Assembly (NCBI GenBank): GCA_902593795.1
Contig: CACJJR010000002.1
Location: 62,001 to 126,000 of the forward strand
Reading direction: 5' to 3'
Source: an uncultured Candidatus Actinomarina sp.
GTDB lineage: Bacteria; Actinomycetota; Acidimicrobiia; Actinomarinales; Actinomarinaceae
Length of the DNA: 64,000 nt
This document shows, piece after piece, positions 56,820-59,553 of this stretch. The notes beneath the pieces are model-generated. The model did not search any database. It saw only the letters and a program-made list of their open reading frames with translations, and was not told where the DNA came from. Within the stretch, counting starts at the first letter, position 1; each line of letters starts with the position of its first letter. The translations under genes and the position numbers were made by a program.

Positions 56820-57335
56820 TTATAAATTATGAATAACATTTGTCACAACACCCCAAACGAAAGCCTCACTTTCATGGGGGATGACAATAGGATCATAAGC
56901 ATCGTTTTCCGGCTCTAAAATTATCTTCTTACCTTTTTTGCGATATCTTTTTACAGTAAGCTCATTGTCTACTACAGCTATTACAACTTTTCCATCTTCA
57001 GCTTTTAAGCTTCTATCAACTACTAAGATATCATCTGGAAATATTCCTGCATTAATCATCGACTCTCCCGAAGCTCTCACCAAAAAGGTAGAAGCAGGAT
57101 GTTTTACTAAATATTGATTTAAATCTATCTTGTCTTCCAGGTAATCATCCGCAGGGGATGGGAATCCAGCAGCAACTTTGTTGCTATACATAGGCACTTC
57201 GTACAATCCTTTAGTGATGACTTCAGAAATATATTTCACCTTACTTACAGGAATACGTATAGCTTTTGTCTGTTCCCCATACTTACCTTGACCTTTAGGT
57301 CTTCCGGCTCCTTCTCTTGCTCCACCTCGTGGCAT
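56820..57335 (-). CDS. umuD: UmuD-like S24 peptidase with GGAREGAGRPKG N-terminus (ORF opens at 57377; ATG 57335 preferred)
   Basis: KVAAGFPSPADDYLEDKIDLNQYLVKHPASTFLVRASGESMINAGIFPDDILVVD. Confidence 0.92.
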   Translation of the reverse strand: MPRGGAREGAGRPKGQGKYGEQTKAIRIPVSKVKYISEVITKGLYEVPMYSNKVAAGFPSPADDYLEDKIDLNQYLVKHPASTFLVRASGESMINAGIFPDDILVVDRSLKAEDGKVVIAVVDNELTVKRYRKKGKKIILEPENDAYDPIVIPHESEAFVWGVVTNVIHNL

Positions 57336-57357
57336 AAAATGTCTTTCTTTTTTCTTA

Positions 57358-57375
57358 GAATAGTGTACAGTATTC
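57358..57375. promoter_or_regulatory. near-perfect 18-bp palindrome in the divergent umuD/umuC promoter region, candidate SOS operator
   Basis: GAATAGTGTACAGTATTC, symmetric except at one position pair. Confidence 0.55.
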
Positions 57376-57389
57376 AAAGGAGTAAGTAA

Positions 57390-58655
57390 GTGAATAATAA
57401 AATTTTTGCCCTAGTGGACTGTAATAATTTTTATGCATCCTGTGAGAGGGTATTCAATCCCAAGTTAGAAGGAAAGCCTATTGTTGTACTATCTAATAAT
57501 GACGGATGTGTAGTTGCTAGATCAAATGAGGCAAAAGCTTTAGGCATACCAATGGGAGCCCCTTATTTTAAATACAAACAACTTATCAACAGAAATAAAG
57601 TTCATGTATTTTCATCAAACTACACTTTTTATGGTGACATGTCAGCCAGAGTAATGACTTCACTAAAGTCTCTTGTGAGTGATATAGAGATTTACTCTAT
57701 CGATGAGGCATTCCTTGATATAAGCAGCTTTTACTACTGTGACTTAGAAGAGACTGCTCAAGAAATAAGAAGATTAATAAAACAATGGACAGGTATTCCA
57801 GTTTCTATAGGCATAGGCCCAACAAAGACATTAGCGAAAGTAGCAAACAGACAGGCCAAGAAATACACAGTATCTAATGTTTTTGATATAAGAGACGAGA
57901 CTATAAGAAAAGATGTTTTAAAAGACCTACCACTTGAAGAGATATGGGGCATTTCAACAAGATGGGGTAGAAGGCTTCGCAGAATTGGAATAGACACTGC
58001 TTATGATTTGACACAGGCAAATGCTCGCCATGTTAGAAAAACGATCAGCATTGTAGGAGAGAGGATACATCATGAGCTAAATGGTATTTCCTGCATTGGT
58101 ATAGAAGAGGTGAAGAATAAAAAAAATATCATATCTTCTAAATCATTTGGCAGAAAAGTAATGATGGTAGGTGAGTTAGAGGAAGCTGTTTCCAACTATG
58201 TTGCTAGAGCATGTGAGAAGCTTAGAGCACAGGGTTCGAGAGCACAGGGCTTATATGTATTTTTGAGAACAAGTCCGTTTGTTGATCCAGAGAAAAGATA
58301 TAGCAATGGTATGAGTACTTTTTTCACAATACCAACAAGCAATACTTCAAAGATTGTCAAAGAAGCAAAACATTTAACACGAAAACTCTTTGTGTACGGA
58401 TATGAGTATCAGAAAATTGGCGTAATGTTACTAGATATTACTGGTTCAGAGAATGAGCAGTATAGTTTTTACGAATATGAGAACTATGACCAATCCGACC
58501 GTGTTATGGAGGTACTGGATGGTGTTAATAGTAAATATGGATCAAGTACATTGACGGTGGGAGCACAGGGTATAACAAAAGACTGGAGAATGAAGTCAGA
58601 AAGAAAGTCTGCTGCCTACACAACAAACATGCTTCAAATACCAGTTGTGAAGTAA
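57390..58655 (+). CDS. umuC: Y-family DNA polymerase V catalytic subunit-like (GTG start)
   Basis: [53 protein letters not shown]. Confidence 0.95.
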
Positions 58656-58689: not shown

Positions 58690-59553
58690 ATGGCTTTAGA
58701 GAATCCATATGCAAATTCACTAGATGGTCTTGAGATAGAAGATCCTGTACAAAGCTTTTTTGATTATTGCAAAAAACGTGAAGCAGTACGTGTAAAAAGA
58801 GAGTCAGGAGAATCATTTCCTTGGAGTGATGATCCAATTTTACAAAAAGGACGCTTTTTAAATGTTTTCAGAGAGGATGACAAAGTAAGTAAATCGATTA
58901 TTGAATTTGCTGAATCAGCAAAAGATGACTTACCTTTGTTAATCCAAGCTTTATTTTTTAGTAGGTGGTGCAATAGAGATTCAACTATAGAACAATTAAA
59001 ACTTGGTGATTTAAGTAATCCAGAAGCTTTAAAAGAAAAACTTATTGGTTTAGAACAATGGGAGAATTACACAGCATACCCAGTAGAAAATTCACACTGG
59101 GATGAAAAGCCATATAGCCGTATAGATGCAGCTACATACAAATTTTATGAAAAAAAAGATGAGTTAACCCAAATCGTTTTAAATTCAAATAAGAATGTTA
59201 TTACTGCTACAAAGAATATAAATAAGCAATTTATGATGAGTAATGACTTCCCAATATTTATGGCTTTAATCGATATTGCTTGGTTTAGAGAAGATGTCAT
59301 ACCAATCACTACGGATGTTCCAACTGGTATTGGTGCAGAGCCATATTTAGACAGGCTCCAAAAGTTTCTAAAATTAAATAGCCACCAGGATGTAGGCCTT
59401 AAAATGATAGAACTCCAGAAAGAATACTGGCCTGATGCTAAAAGAGATTTTTATCCTATTGACATAGAGTATCAGTCTTGTGAATGCAGGAAATACTTCA
59501 GCTATGTGAATGGTACAAAAAAATTTGAGGGAAAAAATCTTTTTTCCATATGA
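58690..59553 (+). CDS. 5-hmdU DNA kinase helical domain / alpha-glutamyl-putrescinyl-thymine pyrophosphorylase-like protein
   Basis: KKREAVRVKRESGESFPWSDDPILQKGRFLNVFREDDKVSKSI and C-terminal IEYQSCECRKYFSYVNG match my recollection of the HMUDK_hel/aGPT-PPlase family signature; no P-loop. Confidence 0.6.
   Translation: MALENPYANSLDGLEIEDPVQSFFDYCKKREAVRVKRESGESFPWSDDPILQKGRFLNVFREDDKVSKSIIEFAESAKDDLPLLIQALFFSRWCNRDSTIEQLKLGDLSNPEALKEKLIGLEQWENYTAYPVENSHWDEKPYSRIDAATYKFYEKKDELTQIVLNSNKNVITATKNINKQFMMSNDFPIFMALIDIAWFREDVIPITTDVPTGIGAEPYLDRLQKFLKLNSHQDVGLKMIELQKEYWPDAKRDFYPIDIEYQSCECRKYFSYVNGTKKFEGKNLFSI

Follow-up and report, generated by a model that had tools for sequence, protein, structure and literature searches.

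The ORF at 58690-59553 on the plus strand of the window (the whole 64,000-nucleotide stretch of Candidatus Actinomarina DNA that was analysed) encodes a member of a separate cellular HMUDK_hel subfamily and not the HMUDK_hel part of a phage-type 5-hmdU kinase. The protein (ATG start, 287 aa) is encoded apart from any kinase gene, its four cysteines are invariant in the cellular subfamily, its gene is under purifying selection, and in one Actinomarina clade the gene lies directly behind umuC. Our preferred reading, which we hold tentatively and with rather less than even confidence, is that of a standalone cellular protein that handles DNA bases, carries a four-cysteine metal or Fe-S site, flips bases for excision, alteration or marking, and was recruited behind umuC in one clade. 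In phages, HMUDK_hel domains are known to assist thymine-hypermodification kinases, and to our knowledge no HMUDK_hel domain has a known catalytic activity by itself. The features of the locus are listed in the table.

Table. Features of the umuD-umuC-HMUDK_hel locus, in positions of the window
Feature	Position	Strand	Basis or remark
umuD (S24 peptidase family), divergent from umuC	56820..57335	-	profile match; likelier ATG start
Palindrome GAATAGTGTACAGTATTC between umuD and umuC	57358..57375	.	putative operator of umuDC (here + HMUDK_hel) unit
umuC, translesion polymerase V catalytic subunit	57390..58655	+	directly upstream of HMUDK_hel gene
HMUDK_hel-type gene, cellular four-cysteine subfamily	58690..59553	+	PF18723, 39 distinct relatives, AF2 pLDDT 92.6, dN/dS
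Cys27	58768..58770	+	invariant in cellular subfamily; phage relatives mostly Ala
N58-V-F-R-E-D-D-K65 family signature	58861..58884	+	N58, F60, R61, E62, D63, D64 invariant, cellular and phage
Cys94	58969..58971	+	invariant in cellular subfamily; phage relatives mostly Phe
Candidate helix-hairpin-helix (helix 170-181, turn, helix 187-199)	59197..59286	+	inferred from model and fold matches
V-P-T-G-I-G loop (210-215)	59317..59334	+	invariant in 15 aligned cellular members; phage members have PGPG
Cys264-Glu265-Cys266	59479..59487	+	C264 and E265 family-wide; C266 in cellular subfamily only

The ORF is a real gene, because 35 of 42 Actinomarina genomes carry it without internal stops, as a single copy, and dN/dS within the clade was 0.09-0.14, which also places the gene under purifying selection. 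All eight Actinomarina genomes that were at least 90% complete contained it. The first-pass annotation, made from the letters alone, had likened the protein to the helical domain of 5-hmdU DNA kinases, and the profile search bore this out: PF18723 (HMUDK_hel; curated cut-off, 25 bits) matched with 65.8 bits and an E value of 5.3e-18, residues 20-271 aligning with positions 4-273 of the 281-position profile, and phrog_2396 was matched as well (E 1e-20). The parallel likeness to aGPT-PPlases did not hold by sequence, since PF18724 (aGPT-PPlase/ADDT) gave no match and HMUDK_hel was the sole Pfam family up to E 10. No NTPase family matched up to the same E value; the protein therefore has no P-loop, as had been noticed at the outset. 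The Pfam search gave no match to PF00730 (HhH-GPD DNA glycosylase), NCBIfam gave no match, and a profile search of PDB sequences found nothing.

We aligned 15 cellular and 19 phage members of the family. Over these 34 sequences, 20 residues were invariant, among them N58, F60, R61, E62, D63, D64, R92, N95, D195, G215, W247, C264, E265, and K268, and so were the family signatures NxFREDD, RxxN, and CE..K. The phage 5-hmdU DNA kinases of SP10, phiW-14, and PaMx11 (gp50) thus share with the Actinomarina protein these signatures and D195, together with a PF18723 match above the cut-off and a similar predicted fold. The cellular form differs from them in having three extra invariant cysteines, VPTGIG in place of PGPG, an invariant H232, and an NGTKxFEG C-terminus, and the Actinomarina protein has neither a P-loop domain nor an adjoining kinase. 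In the tree, the cellular proteins formed a separate clade with support of 100/100 on a very long branch.

The cellular subfamily comprised 39 distinct proteins from Actinomarina, Marinimicrobia, Verrucomicrobia, Kiritimatiellae, and Chloroflexi, across which 83 positions were invariant, including H232, D258, and E260 (39/39). Relatives with 84-92% identity to the protein came from Candidatus Actinomarina genomes, and those with 49-60% identity from genomes of the other four groups. Among 396 Actinomycetota genomes, the four-cysteine type was found only in the source genome itself; five others contained weak matches of the canonical HMUDK_hel type only. A PIN-domain gene lies immediately upstream of the Kiritimatiellae HMUDK_hel gene (L043:4045-4419).

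All four cysteines of the Actinomarina protein (C27, C94, C264, and C266) were conserved in each of the 39 cellular proteins. Of the four, phage relatives retain C264 only; position 266 is mostly Phe or Tyr in them, and no Cys was found at position 94 or 266 in 57 phage loci. That the other three were gained jointly suggests a function shared with C264. The simplest reading of this invariance suggests that the four cysteines form a metal (Zn) or Fe-S site.

Structural information was obtained by AlphaFold2 prediction from a joint alignment (pLDDT 92.6, pTM 0.89). In comparisons with VIA-align, where Z values of 7-8 often arise by chance with helical models and anything below about 13 may do so, the top match was the phage DNA glycinyltransferase PUGT (8z2n; Z 9.1 over 211 residues, within the chance range for helical models), followed by DUF2419 queuine-salvage structures (Z 8.2-8.8), an AlkA-like 3-methyladenine glycosidase (2h56; Z 7.2), and OGG1 (Z 5.5). 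Matches in BFVD were the 5-hmdU kinase helical proteins of SP10 and phiW-14 (E 3e-6 to 1e-5), and Foldseek against the PDB gave nothing at E < 1e-3, its best rows being unrelated. The fold matches concur in that the model resembles a glycosylase-like, base-flipping helical fold, with middling Z scores and sequence profiles that do not support it. PUGT and the other amino acid:DNA transferases (PF18724; 8z2m, 8z2n) belong, as HMUDK_hel does, to a thymine-hypermodification family, but identity was 8%, PF18724 did not match, and profile-profile comparison with three PUGT-type proteins gave no support (probability 1%). The HhH-GPD glycosylases gave a partial match of the helical fold at the Z scores above, but lack of a PF00730 match was accompanied by lack of profile-profile support against 17 HhH-GPD proteins from relatives (E ~0.4-0.6), by no proven equivalent of the catalytic Asp, and by no recognisable Lys nucleophile. 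The DUF2419/Qng1 queuine-salvage enzyme differs in showing 4-9% identity and belonging to another family. D258 (in PIDIEY) was considered as the glycosylase Asp, by analogy with PVDVHMW of OGG1, and rejected as unsafe: this position is E, D, or T in phage members, and, judging by how the elements are ordered, the helix-hairpin-helix probably lies earlier (170-199), with no conserved Asp after it at the expected place.

Next, we compared the gene neighbourhoods of cellular and phage members. A small P-loop protein, mostly with the motif GTSGSGK[ST], was encoded directly upstream of phage-type HMUDK_hel in 33 of the 59 IMG/VR loci listed, and in PaMx11 the order is gp49 (P-loop), gp50 (HMUDK_hel), and gp51 (thymidylate-synthase-like), with the same order in Sonora. 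PaMx11 gp49 (L082:11423-11992) is annotated as a terminase small subunit, yet it is a P-loop protein directly before gp50 and is probably the kinase subunit. None of 16 cellular loci had a small P-loop kinase next to HMUDK_hel, and gp49 had no credible homologue in the source genome (best E 0.12); the cellular form is therefore no subunit of a split kinase such as phages have. No kinase or thymidylate-synthase-like gene was found flanking the cellular loci examined, and the loci outside Actinomarina had no conserved neighbours and no repair theme.

The HMUDK_hel ORF begins 34 bp after the stop codon of umuC, which ends at 58655, exactly the same-strand spacing first reported. By profile search (IMS, IMS_C, and DUF4113), umuC encodes the complete catalytic subunit of Pol V; against NF002955 the protein scored 424.6 bits, slightly below the cut-off of 431. 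HMUDK_hel adjoined umuC with a constant gap in 18 of the 35 Actinomarina carrier genomes and was placed elsewhere in the other 17, in 14 of which umuC was detected at a separate site. The umuC-linked copies require two changes on the HMUDK_hel tree, and in clade B the gene often follows those for OMP decarboxylase (pyrF) and dihydroorotate dehydrogenase (pyrD). In other phyla, umuC was near HMUDK_hel at none of 10 loci (flanks of up to ~5 kb per side); three of these genomes encode UmuC-like proteins (42-49% identity) elsewhere. The linkage is thus real yet lineage-specific, being confined to Actinomarina, so that the survey of homologs proposed with the first-pass annotation found relatives with the arrangement in the genus and none among the 10 loci beyond it. 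A shared transcript of umuC and HMUDK_hel is plausible in the linked clade, because the two genes lie on the same strand, the 34-bp gap is kept in 18 genomes of the genus, and no terminator-like site was found between them on the plus strand. The proposed co-transcription stands to that extent, whereas a general functional tie between the genes is not supported, given the 17 carriers and the 10 loci of other phyla without it.

Beyond these observations, we infer DNA binding, base flipping, a metal site, a substrate class, and a reaction as follows. The helical domain would be a relative of the subunit that flips bases in phage 5-hydroxymethyluracil DNA kinases, and its fold would ally it with the group of DNA glycosylases and DNA amino-acid transferases, the kinase partner of the cellular form having been lost or never present. 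The four clustered cysteines probably coordinate either Zn or an Fe-S cluster, and DNA would be bound via the helix-hairpin-helix-like part. An abnormal thymine, probably oxidised or otherwise 5-modified, would be flipped into a pocket around N58, R61-D64, R92, N95, D195, and E260, and then excised, altered, or marked. In one Actinomarina clade, placement of the gene behind umuC would cause lesion handling and lesion bypass to be co-expressed. We regard it as doubtful that the protein represents a new class, namely a kinase-free HMUDK_hel protein in which four cysteines provide a metal or Fe-S centre and which acts alone on modified or damaged thymine and is coupled to Pol V.

Other explanations account for parts of these data. 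An enzyme acting on nucleotides or nucleosides, which by analogy with the DUF2419/Qng1 queuine-salvage hydrolase would have modified nucleosides and not DNA as the target of its cleavage or clean-up, would agree with the several DUF2419 structures tied with PUGT in VIA-align and with the clade-B copies that follow pyrimidine-synthesis genes; it is unlikely, as the nearest sequence relatives are phage DNA-modification proteins and the pyr neighbourhood is limited to part of one genus. Rather unlikely is a non-catalytic accessory or structural protein, such as a DNA-binding partner of UmuC that uses the old base pocket as a binding site only. The position directly behind umuC in one clade would suit such a partner, as would the role of the phage homologue as the non-ATPase partner of a kinase, but most carriers outside the linked clade have no umuC linkage, and charged pocket-type residues are invariant across phyla. 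The placement of PUGT, a DNA glycinyltransferase, as the best structural match and of phage relatives in thymine-hypermodification cassettes raises the option of an ADDT/PUGT-like transferase that attaches a group to bases of the hydroxymethyluracil type in the DNA of the cell itself or of phages; with no kinase homologue in the genome, no kinase or thymidylate-synthase-like gene beside the cellular loci examined, and no PF18724 match, we judge this quite improbable.

HMUDK_hel domains were very recently reported as parts of a defence system: a validated anti-phage system of 5-hmdU kinase and thymidylate synthase, which includes a dNMP kinase and in which canonical bacterial HMUDK_hel proteins take part, protects E. 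coli (PMC13092281). An actinomycete operon (L053:744-3467) matches that system in make-up: it joins the gene of a canonical HMUDK_hel protein (373 bits) to those of a P-loop protein resembling dTMP kinases and of a protein resembling thymidylate synthase. Canonical bacterial HMUDK_hel proteins (L052 and L053) fall into one Pfam family with the Actinomarina protein and, like it, have the CE..K motif and an Asp at the aligned position of D258; however, they score 373-386 bits to PF18723, compared with 65.8 bits, they lack the C27/C94/C266 set, and the L053 gene adjoins its dTMP-kinase-like and thymidylate synthase genes. Although this system and the similar operon lend themselves to the idea of a protein attacking phage DNA with modified thymine, which the first-pass annotation had also raised, near-universal presence in the genus (8/8 good genomes) and constraint (dN/dS ~0.1) make defence less likely, PADLOC gave no match, and the kinase and synthase partners are absent. 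We consider a defence role very improbable; near-universality together with purifying selection looks like housekeeping more than defence.

The subfamily is a distinct and strongly conserved cellular branch that, without its usual partners, has been retained in streamlined genomes of ~1 Mb, that of Actinomarina being among the smallest of free-living marine bacteria. This suggests that the modification machinery of phages and the handling of bases in cells descend from one ancestor. If, as in our preferred reading, the protein acts on DNA, it would add a repair or base-processing activity to what annotation now calls hypothetical, and the umuC-linked copies would offer a direct way to test whether base processing is tied to translesion synthesis.

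Finally, we focused on the region between umuD and umuC. The palindrome GAATAGTGTACAGTATTC was identical in the 20 Actinomarina loci inspected (15 of clade A and five of clade B), while the coding sequence flanking it varied, and it occurs as one exact copy in the genome. It is a probable operator of the umuDC unit, here together with HMUDK_hel. The site before lexA in the same genome, GAACATATGTTC (GAAC-N4-GTTC), is unlike it, and because of this difference LexA/SOS control of the unit is at most putative; the regulator may be other than LexA, namely another S24-type regulator. The umuD ORF as listed (56820-57377) opens with a TTG that lies within the palindrome, and translation more likely starts from the ATG at 57335 (MPRGGAREGAGRP).
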